Shown here in pieces: positions 2,817-37,433 of a DNA stretch of 38,355 bases. The notes under the pieces were generated by a model, which was not told the origin of the DNA, ran no database searches, and worked only from the letters and a program-made list of their open reading frames with translations. The stretch is from a virus. Each line of letters starts with the position of its first letter. Positions within the stretch are counted from its first letter, which is position 1. Position numbers and translations under genes: made by a program. The stretch spans positions 1 through 38,355 of IMG/VR virus record IMGVR_UViG_3300007344_000071; one strand, written 5' to 3'.

Positions 2817-4196
2817 ATGTCACAACTAATAAAAATAAACCCCAATTTATTTAACCCGCTTTATTGGCATATTTTAGACGTTTTAAAAGATCCTGAAATT
2901 AGGCACGTTTATATTTACGGGGGGTCTTCAGCGGCCAAAACTTATTCTTTGGCACAGGCTTTAATGATTGAGGGCGAAAAACAGCAATTTAATTCAATTA
3001 TATTTAGAAAAGAACAGGCTTCAATTAATGATACTATTTACAACGATTTTAAAGAGATTGACGAAAAATTTGAATTAGAAAACAAACTTCAATTATTTTT
3101 AATAAAATTAGCATGAAATAATGTTATAAGATTCAGAGGTATTGACAAAAGTGGAAAAGTAAAAGGGTTAAAAGGCTATAAAAAAATATTATTAGATGAA
3201 TTAGACCACTTTAAAAAGGACGACTTTAAAGAACTTAGAAGACGTTTAAGGGGTGAAGACGGCCAACAGATATTTTATACATGGAATCCAATAAGTAAAG
3301 AACATTGGGTAAAAGAAGACTTAATTGATAAAGAAGATTGGTTAAAATTACCTTTAGAAGTTCCAGGACCTTCAGAATTTACTTCATTAAGTCATAAATC
3401 AGGTAAATGGATTAATAAAAGAGGTGATTCAATACTTATTAAAACTAATTATTTAGATAATTATTGGGTAAGTGGACACCCTGACGAAAATTTTGGGCGA
3501 TATGATAAGCACGTAATACAGGAATTTGAAAACATGAAGATTTTAGATCCTGAAGATTATAAAATATACGCGTGGGGCGAATGGGGTACGCCTAAAGTTG
3601 ATAGCCCTTATATTACACAATTTGAAGACGCTAAACATATAAGCGAAAAGGCTGTATTTAATCAAAATATGCAATTTATTATAAGTTTTGATTTTAATAT
3701 TGATAATACAACCTGTTTATTTGCTCACGTTGGCCATGATTATATTCACTTCTTTGACGAAATGGCCGCGCCTGATTTACCACAATTATTAGAAAAGATT
3801 AAGTTTAAATATAATAAATTTTTAGTCAATTGTATTATTACAGGTGATAATTCAGGAAATAACAGAACCCATTTAATTAGTGATAAGATGAACAGTTACA
3901 GAATGATTAAAAACCTTCTGAACATAACCCAAACACAATTAAAAGTTGTTGTAAACCCAACACACAAAGAAAATAGGGTTACTTGTAATACAATTTTAGC
4001 CTTTCATCCAAACGTATTATTTAACCCGCGTTGTGAACATACGATTTATGACCTTAAAAATGTTGAATGTGATTCAGAACAAAGAATTATTAAAAAAGAT
4101 AGGTCAATTGCTAACCAAAAAGCGGATCATTTTGATACTTTTAGATATATCTTAAACAGATTTAAAAGGAAATGGGTAAAAGATTACAGAAATTAA
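2817..4196 (+). CDS. terL: Terminase large subunit, interrupted by in-frame TGA
   Basis: ATP-driven DNA packaging motor and nuclease. One frame spans 460 codons but has TGA at codon 100 (3114-3116). Walker A is GGSSAAKT (35-42), with Ala where Gly is usual, and Walker B with catalytic Glu is KILLDELDHF (123-132). The C-terminal RNase H-like nuclease shows acidic residues in SFDFNI (D292), TGDNSG (D344) and ADHFDTF (D437, D440). Domain content and length suit the Terminase_3/6 families. The reading frame continues unchanged after TGA (NNVIRFRGIDKSGKVKG, a conserved-looking ATPase stretch), so the stop separates Walker A from Walker B. The next in-frame ATG is only at 3534. It is a nonsense mutation, sequence error or read-through site. 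Confidence 0.85.
3114..3116 (+). other. In-frame TGA inside the terminase ATPase domain
   Basis: The context is AAA-TTA-GCA-TGA-AAT-AAT-GTT. The flanking peptides (IKLA and NNVIRFRG) read on in the same frame. A single G to A change from TGG would explain it. Standard TGA stops end several other genes here (for example 8932-8934, 6912-6914 and 7478-7480), so a genome-wide TGA=Trp code is not supported. Confidence 0.85.
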
Positions 4197-4919: not shown

Positions 4920-5396
4920 ATGTTTGAAGTAGGAATAAATACATTAATTCACCCAACAGCCGAAATTGAAAGGACTGTTTCAATAGGTGATAATTGCAAA
5001 ATTGGTAAAGGCACAGTAATTAGGCGAAATGTCGAAATACGTGACAATGTTGAAATTGGTGAAAACTGTTATATTGATTCAGGCGTTATTATTACAGGTA
5101 ATGCAAAAATTGGAAATAATGTAACACTTAGAAACTTAGTAGTTGTTGCAAGGGGTTCAGTTATTGGTAACGGTTCATTTTTAGCACCCCGCGTAATGTT
5201 TAACAACCTTGACGAAGTTCAAAATTCTGTAGGTGGTGCAATAGTTGGCGAAAATTGTTTTATAGGAACAAACACAGTCTTACAGCATGGAATTATTATT
5301 GCTGATGAAGTTAAAATTGGTTCAATGTCGTTAGTAACCAAAGATATTAGCGAAAAAGGAATTTATTTTGGATGTCCAGCGAAAAAACAAAGTTAA
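4920..5396 (+). CDS. Hexapeptide-repeat (left-handed beta-helix) acyltransferase
   Basis: A 158-residue protein built of [LIV]-G-x-x-x-x repeats (IGDNCKIGKGTVIRRNVEI, IGENCYIDSGVIITGNAKI) across residues 10-150. It ends with the GCPAK motif found in sugar O-acetyl and N-acyl transferases. It probably moves an acetyl or other acyl group onto a nucleotide sugar or glycan. First gene of the glycan cassette, with its own promoter core 4 nt before ATG. A second, different acyltransferase lies two genes downstream. The exact acyl donor and acceptor cannot be read from sequence. Confidence 0.85.
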   Translation: MFEVGINTLIHPTAEIERTVSIGDNCKIGKGTVIRRNVEIRDNVEIGENCYIDSGVIITGNAKIGNNVTLRNLVVVARGSVIGNGSFLAPRVMFNNLDEVQNSVGGAIVGENCFIGTNTVLQHGIIIADEVKIGSMSLVTKDISEKGIYFGCPAKKQS

Positions 5397-5575
5397 AAAA
5401 AGATTCAGAAAAGTTAAGTTCATTATGTAATTTAAGGCCTGACGAAACTTTACTTTTATTAAGCAAATTACCTAAAAAATATTATAAAACAGGCGCTATA
5501 ATTATTCACGCGCTATCTAATAAAGGTTATCAAAGTTTAGATATATTACTAATCATTAATAAATTAAAAGACTAA
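5372..5575 (+). CDS. Hypothetical 67-residue protein in the glycan cassette
   Basis: ATG 5372 overlaps the upstream acyltransferase by 25 nt, and the stop TAA shares an A with the ATG of the next acyltransferase (TAATG at 5573-5577). It has a lysine-rich N-terminus and a helical remainder (PDETLLLLSKLPKKYYKTGA). There is no recognised family. It could be a carrier or adaptor for the flanking acyltransferases, but nothing like an acyl-carrier phosphopantetheine site (DSL) is convincingly present. Confidence 0.65.
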   Translation: MSSEKTKLKKDSEKLSSLCNLRPDETLLLLSKLPKKYYKTGAIIIHALSNKGYQSLDILLIINKLKD

Positions 5576-6138
5576 TGGAGTTAACAAACAGACAAAAATT
5601 TTGTTTAAAAATGAGGGAATTTTTTAGACCTTCAATAAATGTTGTTTTGCCTCAATGGGTTAGAATTGGCCGCAACGTACATATTGAACAAAACGTTGTT
5701 TTTTCTTATCATGGTTTAGGCGCTGAAAAAATAAAAGATGAATGGCTTTTAATACCTCACGCGGGACATATTTTAATTGGCGACAATGTAACAATATTAG
5801 ATTCAGCAATAATAATGAGAGCAACAAAAACAGTTACTTCAATTGGTCCAGGATCAATAATTGGAGTAAAAGCCCATATTGGCCACAATGTTTATATTGG
5901 TCCAGGTTGTTTAATTGGTTCAGGTTGTTTAATTGGCGGGTCTGTAATAATAGAAAAAGACGTTGAAATTGGGGCGGGTGCAATTATAAGAAACAAAGTT
6001 AAAATTGGAAAGGGTGCAAAGATAGGTTTGGGGGCTGTTGTTGTTAAAGATGTAAAAGAGGGTGAAACTGTTGCGGGTTGTCCAGCAAAACCACTTACAA
6101 AAAAAGAATTAGAACAAACAGATAAATTTTTATTATAA
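5575..6138 (+). CDS. Second hexapeptide-repeat acyltransferase
   Basis: A 187-residue left-handed beta-helix protein. Hexapeptide repeats run from about residue 30 to 165 (IGRNVHIEQNVVF; IGPGSIIGVKAHIGHNVYIG; VEIGAGAIIRNKVKIGKGAK). The helix is interrupted by a loop with a conserved-type His (PHAGHILIGDN), and it ends in AGCPAKPL like maltose/galactoside O-acetyltransferases. It is coupled to the preceding gene by TAATG. Two acyltransferases in one cassette suggest a multiply decorated glycan. The substrate is not determinable. Confidence 0.85.
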   Translation: MELTNRQKFCLKMREFFRPSINVVLPQWVRIGRNVHIEQNVVFSYHGLGAEKIKDEWLLIPHAGHILIGDNVTILDSAIIMRATKTVTSIGPGSIIGVKAHIGHNVYIGPGCLIGSGCLIGGSVIIEKDVEIGAGAIIRNKVKIGKGAKIGLGAVVVKDVKEGETVAGCPAKPLTKKELEQTDKFLL

Positions 6139-6154
6139 ACTAAAACAAAAAAAC

Positions 6155-6313
6155 ATGAATTTAATTTTAATAGTAGTAAGTATCATTTTATTAATTATTA
6201 TTTTGACTTTGCCAAGTAAGTTGAATAAGATAATGAAAAACCAAACTAATTTAGACAAAAAACTTGACATTATTTCTAAGAATCAGGGAGTAATTGAAAA
6301 GAAAATTAAGTAA
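6155..6313 (+). CDS. Small single-span membrane coiled-coil protein
   Basis: 52 residues: an N-terminal hydrophobic segment (MNLILIVVSIILLIIILTL) and then a charged heptad-like helix rich in Lys, Asn and Asp. It starts at ATG 6155 after AACAAAAAAAC and ends at TAA 6311-6313, 1 nt before the next ATG (6315). Likely a membrane-anchored peptide within the glycan operon. No family is recognised. Confidence 0.55.
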   Translation: MNLILIVVSIILLIIILTLPSKLNKIMKNQTNLDKKLDIISKNQGVIEKKIK

Positions 6314-6314
6314 T

Positions 6315-6914
6315 ATGAACAAACAATTATATAAAAAACTATTACAGGGCTATTTAAAAGACGGTTTTAAATTCGTTTTATTTAATGAGTTTGACCCAAA
6401 GAAGGAAAAACAAATAATTCTAAGGCATGACGTTGATTTTTCTGTTGAATACGCTTTAGAAATGGCAAATATTGAAGCTGGTTTAGGAATTAAAGCAAGT
6501 TATTTCTTTTTAACACACAGTCTTTACAATTGGCACACAATAGACTTTTCAGACTTTAAGGGTTTAGGTCATTATACGGGGTTACATATAGATTTTAATT
6601 GCCCTATTGAAATTGATGAAAAAACGTTTAAAAATATTTATTCTATTCATAGGCCAACAAAAGAACATTTAAACACAGATAAACCTTTTTCAACTTATAA
6701 CAAAAAATTCTTTACTGATATTTTTTATACTTCAGATTCAGGGTATAAAGAGCCAAAAACTATAACTGAAAACAGTCAGTTGTTAATTCATCCTATTTGG
6801 TGGATGACAAGAAAAGGCGATATAAATATGAAGCTTAAAGAATGGCAAAAATTAGAGGCTAAAAAAACAAACGAATATATTAGTGAAAACATTAAAAAAG
6901 AGTTGTTAAAATGA
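6315..6914 (+). CDS. Polysaccharide deacetylase-like (NodB-type) protein
   Basis: 199 residues from ATG 6315; a TTG start 21 nt upstream would overlap the preceding gene and is less likely. The first NodB motif is ILRHDVDF (35-42), with metal or catalytic Asp in HDVD, followed by IKASYFFLTHS, the strand after motif 1 in CE4-like proteins. HIDF (91-94), SIHRP and LLIHPIWWM supply further His residues. Such divergent deacetylases sit in surface-glycan loci, where they remove N-acetyl groups. The family assignment is by motif only. Overlaps the next gene by ATGA. Confidence 0.7.
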   Translation: MNKQLYKKLLQGYLKDGFKFVLFNEFDPKKEKQIILRHDVDFSVEYALEMANIEAGLGIKASYFFLTHSLYNWHTIDFSDFKGLGHYTGLHIDFNCPIEIDEKTFKNIYSIHRPTKEHLNTDKPFSTYNKKFFTDIFYTSDSGYKEPKTITENSQLLIHPIWWMTRKGDINMKLKEWQKLEAKKTNEYISENIKKELLK

Positions 6915-7480
6915 ATAAAAGAGAACTAAAAGAAGACTTTTATGACAATGCTTATATTGATTCTAAAAAATATAATAGTCATTATAAAAAAACGCCTTAC
7001 TTTAAAGACTTATGGCCTTTTGTTTTATCTAAGCTTAACAAAGAAAAAGACATTATTGCTGACTTTGGTTGTGGTCCTGGTCAATTTCCTAATTATTTAG
7101 TTGATGAAGGCTTTAAATTGTCTTATGGTACAGACTTTTCAGAAGTAGCAATTGAAAAAAGTAAAGAATTGTTACCTGAACACAAATTTTATGTTTGTGA
7201 TATGTATAAAAAAGACACTTATACTAAACACAAATACAATACAGCGATTTGTTTAGAGGTTTTAGAACACCTAACAAACGATTTTAAGTTTTTCGAGTAT
7301 TTACCTAAAGGATGCAAAATAATTGTTTCTGTGCCAAATTTTGACAGTATTTCACACGTTAGATATTTTAAGGACCTAAACGAAGTAAAGAAACGTTATA
7401 AGGATCAAATGAAAATTCAAGGTGGCAAAACAATTTACTTAGGTAACAAACAAATTTTTATATTATTCGGGACTAAATGA
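6911..7480 (+). CDS. Class I SAM-dependent methyltransferase
   Basis: 189 residues. Motif I is IIADFGCGPGQF (48-59), followed by GTDFSEVAIEKSKEL (post-I acidic residue D), YVCDM (motif II) and CLEVLEHL (motif III/IV), as in the Methyltransf_11/23 families that methylate small molecules and sugars. It overlaps both neighbours by ATGA (6911-6914 and 7477-7480), so it is co-translated with the deacetylase-like and glycosyltransferase genes. Its likely role is O-methylation of the same glycan. A DNA or protein substrate is less likely because the catalytic DPPY/NPPY motif is missing. Confidence 0.8.
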   Translation: MNKRELKEDFYDNAYIDSKKYNSHYKKTPYFKDLWPFVLSKLNKEKDIIADFGCGPGQFPNYLVDEGFKLSYGTDFSEVAIEKSKELLPEHKFYVCDMYKKDTYTKHKYNTAICLEVLEHLTNDFKFFEYLPKGCKIIVSVPNFDSISHVRYFKDLNEVKKRYKDQMKIQGGKTIYLGNKQIFILFGTK

Positions 7481-8163
7481 AAATAATAGCTGTAACACCT
7501 TTTTATTTAAGGCCTCATATATCTAAAATATTTTGGCAAAATTGCAACGATATTAATTTAGATGTTATTGCCCTTGTTTCAGACTATGATAATAAAATTT
7601 TAGCAGAAAAAAACGCTTATAAAACTATTGAGTTACAAAACAACCCTTTAGGCCTTAAATGGCAAACAGGAATAGAAGCCTTAAAAGAAATTGAATTTGA
7701 CTACTGTTTAATTATAGGGTCTGACGACATAACAAGTTTTAAATGTATTGACTTATATAAAAAGATAATAAAAGAAACAAACAGCGAATATATAGGTTTT
7801 CAAGATGCTTTAGCAATGGATTTTAAAACTAAAAAATTCAGAAGATTTAAAGGTTATGAAGGTTTTAGGTCAGGCGAATCAATAGGGGCAAACAGATTAA
7901 TTAGTAAAAGACTATTAGAATTAATTAATTATAAAGTTTTTCCTGTTGGCCGTCATAAATTTATGGACAGGCCTTTAACTGAAGCCCTAAAAAAACAAGG
8001 TATTGAAAACACTTTGATTAAACAAGGGTTAAAGCCTTACAGATTCGGATTAAAAACAAAATTAACTATTTCAAAAAACTATCATGGAAGCCCTTTTATC
8101 TATAATGTAAATTTAAAAGGTTGGTATTCTGAAGAAGTTATAAAAATGTTATTAGAAAAATAG
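7477..8163 (+). CDS. Glycosyltransferase-like protein (GT-A type)
   Basis: A 228-residue protein beginning MKIIAVTPFYLRP, a typical first strand of a GT-A nucleotide-sugar fold. YCLIIGSDDI (77-86) occupies the position of the DxD metal/nucleotide motif. FRSGESIGANRLISKRLLE resembles the acceptor-side loop of GT2-like enzymes. It is the last gene of the cassette that starts at 4920. Its stop TAG (8161-8163) directly precedes a new promoter core. Donor and acceptor are unknown; the context suggests decoration of the virion or of host surface glycan. Confidence 0.7.
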   Translation: MKIIAVTPFYLRPHISKIFWQNCNDINLDVIALVSDYDNKILAEKNAYKTIELQNNPLGLKWQTGIEALKEIEFDYCLIIGSDDITSFKCIDLYKKIIKETNSEYIGFQDALAMDFKTKKFRRFKGYEGFRSGESIGANRLISKRLLELINYKVFPVGRHKFMDRPLTEALKKQGIENTLIKQGLKPYRFGLKTKLTISKNYHGSPFIYNVNLKGWYSEEVIKMLLEK

Positions 8164-17554: not shown

Positions 17555-17689
17555 ATGATTGATGAATACTTTAAAGAAAAAGCCAAAGAAAAGAAAAAAC
17601 AAATTCTTTTGAGTTGGAAAAAGTTCTACCTGGATTACAATAATGAATATCAGGCTGGAAAAGTTGAACGACAGTTAGAAAGACTATGA
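17555..17689 (+). CDS. 44-residue basic helical protein
   Basis: ATG 17555 to TGA 17687-17689. Lys/Glu-rich and probably one amphipathic helix (DEYFKEKAKEKKKQILLSW, ending KVERQLERL). It overlaps the glycosyltransferase start by ATGA (17686-17689), so its leaderless translation could feed the downstream gene by coupling. The function is unknown. Confidence 0.6.
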   Translation: MIDEYFKEKAKEKKKQILLSWKKFYLDYNNEYQAGKVERQLERL

Positions 17690-18504
17690 ACGGGATCTTA
17701 TTAATTGGAATGGGTAAAAACTATTCCAAAATGGCTTATAATATGGCCTTATCTATTAAGCGAAAAGAACCAAATTTACAAATTGCAATTATTACAGATG
17801 AAACAGATACTTCAATATTAGAAGTTTTTGACCATATAATTGAACCTGAATTAGACGACTATTTAGAGGGCGTACAATTCAACCCTTTTAAGCTTAAAAC
17901 TTTTATTTATAATTACAGCCCTTTTGACAAAACTATTTATTTAGATGTTGACGGTATTTGTTTGACTAAGTTTGATAAACTATTTGAACATGACTTTTTA
18001 ATTCAAGAAGTTGCAAGGTATAACAGCGAAAATTGGGATAAGTGCGCTATGGTTTGGGTAAGGAAGGCAAATAAGCACTTAAAAGACATTTACGAGGCCT
18101 ATAAACTACCTTTAGAAACTTTTTACCCTGAATATAATAGTAGCTTTATTCTGTTCAGTAAAAGCGCTAAAAATAAGAAGTACTTTAAACAGGTCCAAAA
18201 AAATTATATGGATAGAAAGTTAGATTTTAAGCCAATTGGGGGGCGTTACCCTGATGAATTGGCCTTTAACTTAGCTTCAGCGCAATTAAATCATTATTCA
18301 GATAACGAAAAAATTAAGCCTATTTACTTTCAATGGGAAAATAAAACTTTACCCTTAGGAGATATTGAAAAGAAATATAATTTTTTGGGAATGGCTGGGG
18401 GTCACCATTCAAACAGGTTAAAACATATTTACGAAATAACTGTAAAACAATTTAGCCCTTATTGGAAATTTGAAAGTAAAAAGAAAATATTTCACGAAAA
18501 ATAA
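17686..18504 (+). CDS. Glycosyltransferase with DxD motif (GT8-like)
   Basis: 272 residues. It begins NGILLIGMGKNYSKMAYNMA, with a nucleotide-sugar binding strand, and has TIYLDVDGIC with the metal-binding DVD (87-89) as in GT8 and related GT-A enzymes. A YNSSFILFSKSAK loop and a GGHHS element near residue 240 may be the C-terminal metal His. It would transfer a sugar to a protein or glycan. Lying between tube and portal genes, it is a candidate for decorating virion proteins. The donor sugar is unknown. Confidence 0.75.
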   Translation: MNGILLIGMGKNYSKMAYNMALSIKRKEPNLQIAIITDETDTSILEVFDHIIEPELDDYLEGVQFNPFKLKTFIYNYSPFDKTIYLDVDGICLTKFDKLFEHDFLIQEVARYNSENWDKCAMVWVRKANKHLKDIYEAYKLPLETFYPEYNSSFILFSKSAKNKKYFKQVQKNYMDRKLDFKPIGGRYPDELAFNLASAQLNHYSDNEKIKPIYFQWENKTLPLGDIEKKYNFLGMAGGHHSNRLKHIYEITVKQFSPYWKFESKKKIFHEK

Positions 18505-18508
18505 AATA

Positions 18509-18772
18509 ATGGCTAAAAACTGTATTACATTTAGTATAAAAACAGAATTTAAAAACGTGATTTGTATTGATGAAAATTGCACTTCATGCAAAGAACCAAT
18601 TGACTTATCAGGTTATATAATGATAATAAACGGTAAAAAAGTTGCTGTTTTATTATGTGAAAATTGTTATAAGGAATTTGAAGAAATAAGAAACAGGCCA
18701 AAAGCCTATGAAACAGTAGTTAAACACAAACCTAAATTTGGGTTTGAAAGTATTAAAATTTATCTAAATTAA
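18509..18772 (+). CDS. Small zinc-ribbon-like protein
   Basis: 87 residues from ATG 18509. A TTG 39 nt upstream would add 13 residues but lies deep in the preceding gene. Cys pairs in ENCTSCKEP and LLCENCYKEF give a C-x2-C...C-x2-C zinc site around a short beta hairpin. Such ribbons usually bind nucleic acid or stabilise protein contacts. Four nt after the glycosyltransferase stop. No named family. Confidence 0.6.
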   Translation: MAKNCITFSIKTEFKNVICIDENCTSCKEPIDLSGYIMIINGKKVAVLLCENCYKEFEEIRNRPKAYETVVKHKPKFGFESIKIYLN

Positions 18773-18773
18773 A

Positions 18774-19061
18774 ATGAAAAGAAAAACACCAAACAGAAAA
18801 CAAAACAAAGTTAATAGGTTAGAAAATATACAAAAATGGGTTGACCTTTATTTGAATGAAAACGATTTACAAGGGAGTTTTGAAAGCTTTGTAAAAATTA
18901 CAGGTAAAGGCAAAAAATCATTTGCTTATGGAGTAATAAAATTAAAAACAACTTTTAAATTATTGCCTTATTTAGATTTAACCTTTAGACACAAAAAACC
19001 GTTTAACTGTTTAGTTGAATTGACTTTTATTAAATGGAAATTATTTATAAAAATTGGATAA
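18774..19061 (+). CDS. Hypothetical basic 95-residue protein
   Basis: Strongly basic N-terminus (MKRKTPNRKQNKVNR) and aromatic-rich C-terminal half (FIKWKLFIKIG). It starts 1 nt after the previous stop and overlaps the next gene by 8 nt. No domain is recognised. It might bind nucleic acid or membranes through its charge, which is speculation. Confidence 0.6.
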   Translation: MKRKTPNRKQNKVNRLENIQKWVDLYLNENDLQGSFESFVKITGKGKKSFAYGVIKLKTTFKLLPYLDLTFRHKKPFNCLVELTFIKWKLFIKIG

Positions 19062-19779
19062 AGTAACAATAATAATTCCTGTTCACAACATTATTAAGCG
19101 CGGTTTTAAACGTGTTTTAAATTCTGTTCAAAGTTTAGAACTTCAGCAAAGTTATTTAGATGAAATAATTGTTGTTGATAGTTCTGAATTAAGACAGTTT
19201 GAAATGCTTAACGACCTTTTAAAACTTACTAAGGCCAAACATTACCATTTACCTTTAGACAACTTTAATAAGCCTAAACTGTTAAATTACGGTATTAATA
19301 AAGCTGAATCAAAATTTATTATGTGTACAGATTCAGATTATATTTTTAGAAAAGACTTTTTAAAAGAATGTGAAAGGGTAAGGGGTGAAAAAGTAATTAT
19401 ATTTAAAGAAGTTAAAATGTTGCCCCCAATTTCTAACATTAATTTGTCCAGGATCAAAACTTGGAATTTTCCAAAGTCTAAATTTAACCAATGGAAAAAG
19501 TTAGCTAATGGGGCGTGTCAATATGCTACAAAGAAATTCTTTACTGAAAACCCTTATTTTGAAGAAATGGAAGGTTTTGGGGCAATGGATAATTTAACAG
19601 CTTATGTTGCTTATAATAAAGGCCTTAAAATACATTGGTTAACACAAAGCGAAATATTGCACCAATACCACCAAATTGAAAATAAAATGGGTGGGACTAA
19701 TAAGAAAAAATTCAATAAGAATCAACAAGTTTTAGAAAAATATAGGAAAAAATACAATTTACCTAAACTTTTAAAATAA
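19054..19779 (+). CDS. Family 2 glycosyltransferase
   Basis: 241 residues. VTIIIPVHNIIKRG is the canonical GT2 first strand, DEIIVVDSSE the second, and FIMCTDSDYIF (DSD at 93-95) the DxD metal motif. GACQYATKKFF and GFGAMDNLTAYVA form the acceptor region (GT2 ED-like D). The start must be TTG 19054, because no ATG precedes the essential IIIPVH strand. TTG starts are rare here, so expression may be kept low or coupled to the overlapping upstream gene. Second glycosyltransferase of this block. Confidence 0.85.
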   Translation: MDKVTIIIPVHNIIKRGFKRVLNSVQSLELQQSYLDEIIVVDSSELRQFEMLNDLLKLTKAKHYHLPLDNFNKPKLLNYGINKAESKFIMCTDSDYIFRKDFLKECERVRGEKVIIFKEVKMLPPISNINLSRIKTWNFPKSKFNQWKKLANGACQYATKKFFTENPYFEEMEGFGAMDNLTAYVAYNKGLKIHWLTQSEILHQYHQIENKMGGTNKKKFNKNQQVLEKYRKKYNLPKLLK

Positions 19780-36088: not shown

Positions 36089-36157
36089 ATGGCAATAACA
36101 ATTAGGAAGAAGCCTAAAAGACGTGCCTTAATAGTGGTGGTTGTAAAGTCTTTGTAA
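36089..36157 (+). CDS. Possible 22-residue basic peptide
   Basis: ATG 36089 to TAA 36155-36157 gives MAITIRKKPKRRALIVVVVK and two more residues. Basic head and hydrophobic tail. It occupies most of the gap 36076-36194. Too short to be certain, but the composition is not random A/T sequence. Confidence 0.3.
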   Translation: MAITIRKKPKRRALIVVVVKSL

Positions 36158-36194
36158 ACCAAACTATTATTTTTTAACTTAAAAAACGTAAAAC

Positions 36195-36620
36195 ATGAAA
36201 ACTATAAACAGAAAAGTAAACCCTTACGCCTTTGCTGGTATGCAATTTGACACAGTTGGCGGGGTATTAAATAAAGCTTTAAAAAACCCTTCAAAAATAC
36301 CTGATACAACAACGCGAAACATTATAGCTTTAGCAATTGAAGAAATAACAGAAGTATCAATTGAAGATATTAAAAGCCGTAAAAGACATAGATATATTGT
36401 TGAAATAAGACAAATTTATCATTACTTTTTGAAAAATTATACAGGTTATAATTTAACAGCAATAGGGGCTTTAACTAATCGGGATCATTCAACAGTTTTA
36501 TATAGTATTAAAATGGTTGAGGACCTTAAAGAAACTGACCCAGCTTTTAACGCTTTAGTTAATAAGATTAAAAAAGAAATTGAATTAAAAATTACTGAAA
36601 AATTAGAAATACTAATATAA
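36195..36620 (+). CDS. DnaA domain IV-like replication protein
   Basis: 141 residues. The C-terminal half follows the DnaA DNA-binding domain: RKRHRYIVEIRQIYHYFLKN, YNLTAIGALTNRDHSTVLYS (RDHSTV 96-101 is the box that contacts DnaA boxes), and a final helix. The ATPase domain of DnaA is absent; residues 1-55 are another small domain. It may mark the phage origin or compete with host DnaA. The following 36621-36767 gap is unusually structured and may be its target. Confidence 0.85.
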   Translation: MKTINRKVNPYAFAGMQFDTVGGVLNKALKNPSKIPDTTTRNIIALAIEEITEVSIEDIKSRKRHRYIVEIRQIYHYFLKNYTGYNLTAIGALTNRDHSTVLYSIKMVEDLKETDPAFNALVNKIKKEIELKITEKLEILI

Positions 36621-36625
36621 TTTAT

Positions 36626-36633
36626 TATATTTG
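36626..36633 (+). promoter_or_regulatory. TATATTTG promoter core of the structured leader
   Basis: A TAnnTTTG match 6 nt after the DnaA-like gene. A transcript starting near 36638 would have about 130 nt before ATG 36768, by far the longest leader predicted here. Confidence 0.6.
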
Positions 36634-36636
36634 TTC

Positions 36637-36767
36637 TTTAAACCGAAGCGACACAATTAGTTTAAAATTTTTATTATATATAATTCCTGTTAGGTGCTTT
36701 GCGTATTTCCTTTGTCGCTATCGGTTACGCATTGCACTTGACAAGGAAAATAAAACCCGATAGCGAT
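36637..36767 (+). promoter_or_regulatory. Highly structured leader with competing pairings (riboswitch-like or origin element)
   Basis: Less A/T-rich than its surroundings. Hairpin F: TTTAAAC (36637-36643)/GTTTAAA (36660-36666). Hairpin D: GTGC-TT-TGCGTA (36694-36705)/TACGCA-TT-GCAC (36726-36737), perfect except a TT/TT pair. Loop arm B TGTCGCTATCGGTT (36713-36726) can pair with loop arm A AACCGAAGCGACA (36641-36653, one bulge) or, exactly over ten bases, with arm C CCGATAGCGA (36757-36766), which ends 1 nt before ATG 36768. CCTTTGTC (36709-36716) can also pair with GACAAGG (36740-36746). Could be an RNA switch controlling the next gene, or a DNA element such as an origin hairpin. Confidence 0.6.
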
Positions 36768-37433
36768 ATGAAAAACACAAAAAGAAAAGGATTTAATTTT
36801 TTTAGAAGTTATTTTGATGTTTACAATGAACTTGAAAATAATGAAGATAAAGTTGCTTTTATTGATGCACTTTTAGAAAGGCAATTTTTAGGGGTTAAAC
36901 CTGAAAACTTAAAAGGTATGTCACGATTTGCCTGGATAAGTCAAGTTAATTCAATAGACAGTCAGGTAAAGGGTTGGGAAGATAAAACAGGGTTAAAATT
37001 AACCCCTACCGAAGGGGGGTCTTTAAGGGGTAAAAACAACCCTACCGAACAACTACAAGTAGAAGAAGAAGTAAAAGAAGAAGTAAAACTACAAGTAAAA
37101 GAAAAAATGTATTTCAAAAAAGAAATACATGACACCTTTGAAAATTGTTTAAATTATTTTCCTGAACACCTTCACCCAAAAAATGAAAAAATTAAAAATA
37201 GCTGGTTAGACACAATTAAAAAATTAAATGAAATTGAAAAATTACCTTTTGAAAAAATTATTGAAATAGTTGAAAAAACGCGAAAAGATGATTTTTGGTC
37301 TAAGAATTTTTTAAGTTTACAAAAGTTACGTAAAAAAAATAAAGAGGGTGTTTTATATATTGTTGTTTTTAATGAACAAATAAAAGGACCAGCACAAAAA
37401 AGTTTACAGGACAAAATTAAACACTTAATGTAA
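36768..37433 (+). CDS. Replication-type protein with DUF6291-like N-terminus
   Basis: 221 residues from ATG 36768. A TTG at 36699 would start inside hairpin D and is rejected. N-terminus FNFFRSYFDVYNELENNEDK and ALLERQFLGVKPENL resemble DUF6291/DnaD-like phage replication proteins. A charged linker (QVEEEVKEEVKLQVKEK) leads to a C-terminal domain with DDFWSKNFLSLQKLRKKNKE, typical of the tails of phage replication initiators. Likely origin-binding or helicase-loading. Controlled by the leader above. Confidence 0.7.
   Translation: MKNTKRKGFNFFRSYFDVYNELENNEDKVAFIDALLERQFLGVKPENLKGMSRFAWISQVNSIDSQVKGWEDKTGLKLTPTEGGSLRGKNNPTEQLQVEEEVKEEVKLQVKEKMYFKKEIHDTFENCLNYFPEHLHPKNEKIKNSWLDTIKKLNEIEKLPFEKIIEIVEKTRKDDFWSKNFLSLQKLRKKNKEGVLYIVVFNEQIKGPAQKSLQDKIKHLM

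Follow-up and report, generated by a model that had tools for sequence, protein, structure and literature searches.

The DNA upstream of the replication (rep) gene in a 38,355-base IMG/VR virus record (the window, i.e. the whole stretch analysed) is a divergent member of a family of phage leaders in which two hairpins, P1 and P2, follow a promoter and pair with each other through their loops. This family of kissing-hairpin leader RNAs is almost certainly real, and it is widespread, and seemingly undescribed, in viruses of Flavobacterium-like bacteria; no description of it was found in the literature searched, subscription journals lying outside the search. The leader (36626–36770) is located between a DnaA C-terminal domain gene and rep, as the first-pass annotation had proposed, and the overall interpretation given there, an element with mutually exclusive pairings, is partly supported. 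The features, by position in the window, are:

36195–36620: DnaA C-terminal domain gene (DnaA domain IV; PF08299, E=3e-17)
36626–36633, plus strand: Bacteroidota -7 promoter box TATATTTG, fitting the consensus TAnnTTTG (PMC7366714)
36637–36666, plus strand: hairpin P1 (TTTAAAC/GTTTAAA; 36637–36643 pairs with 36660–36666 in the fold), with a 16-nt loop
36643–36653, plus strand: segment A (CCGAAGCGACA), the P1 loop arm that pairs with A'
36667–36683, plus strand: AU-rich linker between P1 and P2, 17 nt (5–32 nt, mostly 12–21 nt, in relatives)
36684–36748, plus strand: hairpin P2, from the fold, with no U-tract after it (P2 is of the terminator type in relatives)
36713–36724, plus strand: segment A' (TGTCGCTATCGG), the stretch of the P2 loop that can pair with A or with C
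36757–36768, plus strand: segment C (CCGATAGCGATA), which overlaps the start codon of rep and can pair with A', in this phage only
36768–37433, plus strand: rep gene, with a C-terminal DnaD/O-like region (phrog_2514, E=4e-12)

The promoter core recognised earlier corresponds to the -7 box. Both hairpins that had been described as strong are present, but P1 by itself is weak (about -1.6 kcal/mol in the predicted fold), and P2 is larger than had been stated, with a lower stem (36684–36697/36734–36748), a U-U 2x2 (UU/UU) internal loop, an upper stem (36700–36705/36726–36731) and a 20-nt apical loop. The dual complementarity claimed for the P2 loop arm was confirmed: A' pairs with A over 13 bp with one bulge (AGCGACA/TGTCGCT plus CCGA/TCGG; duplex -19.5 kcal/mol) and with C over 12 bp (-20.4 kcal/mol), taking in the A of the AUG. 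In dinucleotide shuffles of the leader, pairings as strong arose 2 times in 2000 for A:A' and 0 times in 2000 for A':C, never both together, and the whole P1-P2-kiss element was absent from all 2000 of the window's own shuffles. CCGATAGCGA and its complement have one exact occurrence each in the window. The further pairing of CCTTTGTC with GACAAGG also exists but loses to P2. Since A:A' is a pseudoknot, the ordinary fold of the leader is unremarkable (plain MFE z-score only -1.86). A likeness of P2 to integron attC sites was considered and dropped, as the GTTAGGT core is in the wrong order.

Several other regions of the window are worth noting. Before the DnaA-like gene, at 36118–36180, a pair of 6-bp helices interleave and are accompanied by a T run, a family-like arrangement that has no -7 box; because a box-free scan of the window found nothing above shuffles, no second element is claimed. 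ORFs at 2817–4196 resemble a terminase large subunit in two parts (2817–3116 and 3534–4196) about 400 bases apart, and ORFs at 4920–8163 and 17686–19779 resemble, judging from translations only, hexapeptide acyltransferases, methyltransferases and glycosyltransferases amid structural genes.

BLAST of the window leader against phages returned AT-rich chance matches only, and the Rfam 15 covariance models gave no match on the element in the window or in ten relatives. Single-sequence folding and Rfam searches miss the family because its core is a pseudoknot without conserved sequence. Relatives were reached through the N-terminal domain of rep, which is common to at least 140 viral loci, and through the MSKDLF and KSTAIK proteins as further anchors, adding 155 viral loci. 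The leaders of the rep N-terminal-domain relatives cannot be aligned with that of the window, yet they follow the same plan. The rep protein itself is modular: its N-terminal domain, about 95 residues long, is highly conserved, whereas the C-termini attached to it in different phages are unrelated (window 36768–37433, L005–L013).

Members were defined by a TAnnTTTG box followed by P1 within 0–12 nt. An initial descriptor had been adjusted to the few leaders known at the outset; a U-blind version, which demands the box, P1, P2 and at least 7 contiguous Watson-Crick kissing pairs and ignores the sequence after P2, was fixed before loci L096–L250 were fetched. Run over both strands of 1.9 Mb of loci, most of them from phages, it gave 208 matches with a score of at least 65; an equal length of shuffled sequence gave none. 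Among 73 non-redundant matches scoring at least 62, 72 lay on the coding strand and 71 had a U-tract after P2, the exceptions being one weak minus-strand match and the window. The non-redundant family set comprises 71 leaders with 62 different kissing (A) sequences, and a U-tract comes after P2 in all but one of them, a feature on which no selection had been made. A -7 box of the window type is present in most of the 71, P1 holds the same position relative to the box, and nearly all relatives have the internal loop in P2. The window leader scored 78 (best shuffle, 64): its box-P1 spacing is within the family range, its kiss contains a run of 7 contiguous pairs, and the lower stem, internal loop and upper stem of P2 are all in place, but P2 is followed by AGGAAAATAAAAC, which has no U-tract.

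The genes behind the leaders include, with unannotated types judged from sequence, rep, NUMOD4/HNH and GIY-YIG-like endonucleases, a ParB-like gene and an MBL-fold gene, and they start either 10–33 nt or 42–62 nt after P2. Up to three leaders were found per fetched locus. NUMOD4/HNH homing-endonuclease-like genes with their own kissing leader were seen at L049:254, L060:860, L084:2512, L310:11590 and near 2850–2970 of L093; the leader may therefore travel with mobile genes. This variety of genes bears on the rival view, already raised in the first-pass annotation, that the hairpins act as DNA in a replication origin. The window element, flanked by a DnaA domain IV gene on one side and rep on the other, is placed as an origin might be, but copies also front HNH/NUMOD4, GIY-YIG, MBL-fold and other genes unrelated to replication, and the elements come after a promoter, on the coding strand and with U-tracts, so that an origin is very improbable. 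Three local variations were also observed. Leaders of L005, L022, L028 and L048 form a subgroup with an extra small hairpin in the linker and the kissing sequence GCACTAC or CCACTAC. A DUF805b RNA of Rfam (E=4e-11) lies directly downstream of a kissing leader at L045:1987–2019. The KSTAIK leaders (e.g. L221, L026 and L224) have a longer spacing because a conserved hairpin, AATAGTTTATCGGTATCTTAAAACCG, sits between the terminator and the ATG.

The leader occurs in cultured phages, namely Flavobacterium phages tooticki6-1 (two leaders) and morran9-1, Olleya phage Harreka_1 and Polaribacter phage Freya_1 (two leaders). In Cellulophaga phage phi46:3, a leader before an HNH gene was recognised by eye, below the automatic cutoff. 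As the loci were fetched through leader-carrying genes, the density of leaders in them is uninformative on phages at large. The family descriptor found no member in 1.0 Mb of Flavobacteriaceae chromosome, and model R1 gave a best E of 0.002 in 301 Flavobacteriaceae genomes, with none of the 7 matched loci passing the descriptor. It had been suggested that the phage captured a dispersed host repeat (REP/MITE), to which the palindromic P2 lends some colour. However, the window element is present as a single copy in the record, its relatives share no sequence, no family member appeared in the 1.0 Mb of host chromosome, and the R1 matches in the 301 genomes were unconvincing; this explanation can be practically dismissed.

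Conservation of the pairing was examined in the leaders of one gene and by alignment. Upstream of the KSTAIK gene, 50 of 57 distinct regions have the box in place and 42 pass the automatic test, and in further ones the pairing can be recognised by eye. Their kissing sequences are hypervariable (32 different A sequences in 44 leaders) and include swapped versions, in which loop 1 carries GTGAGA and loop 2 TCTCAC or the two are exchanged. In alignment A4, whose 21 leaders had already passed a descriptor requiring P1, P2 and the kiss, so that the percentages of paired cells are inflated, 98.3% of cells were paired (99.4% in the kissing helix), as against 35–42% in slid controls. Both sides had changed in 19 of the 29 pairs, including 6 of the 8 kissing pairs, and 92 double-change cells were counted versus 22.5 +/- 4.2 in shuffles. 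The members found by eye bear on this selection, as does an earlier test that was independent of the kiss, in which 25 of 180 candidates had kisses of at least 7 bp between their own loops versus 3.4 expected from swapped loops. The kissing-loop option, first put forward for a regulatory leader RNA in the window, is therefore strongly supported: among homologous leaders it is the pairing that persists while the sequence varies, the reverse of the outcome that the first-pass annotation had set against its own reading. In contrast, the idea of a riboswitch with a ligand found no backing, given the empty Rfam search and the hypervariable loops.

On the sequence evidence, the leaders are probably cis-acting transcription attenuators with a kissing-loop-coupled terminator. 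RNA polymerase would start just past the TAnnTTTG box and transcribe P1, the AU-rich linker and P2, whose apical loop (A') would kiss the loop of P1 (A). Across the family, P2 has the make-up of a typical intrinsic terminator, 10–62 nt before the gene, and the kiss would tie it to P1. We infer that termination and translation respond to this pairing, and likewise the direction of the response; the kiss could either favour or impede termination. None of the 71 leaders has a further TAnnTTTG box between P2 and the ATG, so transcripts from the leader promoter must read through P2, which is the geometry of attenuation. Because A' leaves RNA polymerase before the 3' arm of P2, A:A' can form first; when the window leader was folded by 3' end, nested A:A' was the predicted minimum at 36726–36737 and P2 took over by 36748. 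In the multi-leader genomes examined, a P1 loop pairs with its own P2 over 7–9 bp and with the P2 loops of other leaders over 2–6 bp, and this orthogonality speaks for a cis mechanism. For kissing-hairpin regulators in general, it has been proposed that interior loops beneath the kissing loops are a design principle (PMC4878617). Against an attenuator, many leaders lie inside same-strand gene runs, where upstream read-in is possible, and no conserved antiterminator was found.

The shape of the element might instead be what is read. It is rather improbable that the leaders are a structural RNA module to which a protein of phage or host, or RNA polymerase itself as with the put RNA of phage HK022, binds whatever the kissing sequence. 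The shape is kept while the kissing sequences differ from leader to leader, a locus can carry up to three copies, and the AU-rich linker and the purine-rich internal loops are conserved, all of which favours such a module; no binding partner or shared regulator gene was identified. A bolder scheme, which we regard as unlikely, would join recognition of shape to attenuation: the early programme of flavobacterial phages would be under RNA control genome-wide, with orthogonal kissing-loop terminators, one per early unit, freed jointly by a shape-recognising phage or host factor. If true, this would be put-like antitermination of a new kind, and the window would contain such a leader turned to translational control.

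Under attenuation, the window element would be the 5' leader of the rep mRNA, one of the early-gene leaders of flavobacterial phages, in which the terminator has been lost and A' has a second partner, C, over the rep start codon. A:A' would keep rep translatable, and A':C would silence it, either in cis, after P2 has been opened, or in trans, by way of a separate copy. In Flavobacterium, translation proceeds without a Shine-Dalgarno sequence and is lowered by structure at the start site (PMC6847099), and A':C is therefore expected to repress. In cis, A':C is incompatible with a closed lower P2 stem, as about 8 nt would have to bridge a length of about 20 bp, and of the two predicted folds P2 is more stable; pairing in cis needs an opened lower stem, whereas pairing in trans does not. 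The proposal that exclusive pairings free or hide a start codon fits the window; it does not suit the family, where a terminator is found instead. A scan for the A'-C inverted-repeat pattern found no other viral contig with the promoter and start codon in place. As the A-A'-C arrangement is unique to one phage, C lacks the support of covariation, and the relatives found for the neighbouring gene P0003 come from the same phage only. We propose only tentatively, from one phage, that the window leader is a divergent and possibly translational member. No other leader has a non-stem part as complementary to the region before the ATG, the nearest being L064 (8 bp, two copies). At L064:2915–3000, a terminator hairpin (GAATGTG...CACATTC-U7) has the loop TTCACGTT, to which each of two AACGTGAA copies immediately upstream of the rep ATG is complementary; this is possibly a related translational design.

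The promoter-P1-P2-terminator unit could be a small RNA gene: with a promoter and a terminator of its own, it would release a discrete RNA of about 100 nt that uses its A or A' loop to act in trans on the cognate mRNA or on different ones, in the manner of P4 CI, P1 C4 and Gifsy-1 IsrK. In P4, seqA and seqC are alternative targets of seqB, as A and C could be of A' in the window, and the L064 terminator loop likewise faces two sites. In the prophage leader IsrK, the readthrough isoform is the target of the short one (PMC4825925). We consider a small RNA gene unlikely, since the elements stand directly before a start codon, A' in most leaders finds no further partner close to the ATG, and the leaders of one genome do not cross-pair.

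The family offers a first handle on gene timing in phages of the phylum Bacteroidota. It puts a structured RNA with strong covariation ahead of early genes, those for replication among them, in many phages of flavobacteria, and it amounts to a large natural collection of orthogonal kissing-loop terminators, candidates for testing as regulators.

Known systems share parts of this architecture. Purine and ZTP riboswitches also have a loop-loop or pseudoknot contact and an expression platform just before the gene, but the phage leaders lack a conserved ligand-binding core. Like the P4 CI and P1 C4 RNAs, the phage elements lie in the leader of the operon that they would control. A loop that can pair with either of two targets in the neighbourhood of its transcript, as in the C4/P4 type, was found in the window only (A and C); most relatives have no second target, there is no Rfam match, and the P1-P2 kiss is the constant feature. 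HK022 put is a two-hairpin phage leader RNA just downstream of early promoters, but put suppresses later terminators, whereas in the phage leaders the second hairpin itself is the terminator. Gifsy-1 IsrK has a prophage promoter followed by a terminator, giving a short terminated RNA and a longer readthrough mRNA; it differs in host and genes, and its abstract mentions no kissing P1-P2 architecture (PMC4825925). The pT181 repC attenuator resembles the phage leaders in being the 5' leader of a replication gene, with an intrinsic terminator before the gene and kissing hairpins with interior loops (PMC4878617). Antisense -7 boxes were absent from the window leader and at chance level in relatives (8 of 71 versus 7.7 expected). 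The pT181 leader has an antiterminator and kisses an antisense RNA in trans, whereas in the phage leaders both hairpins belong to one RNA.
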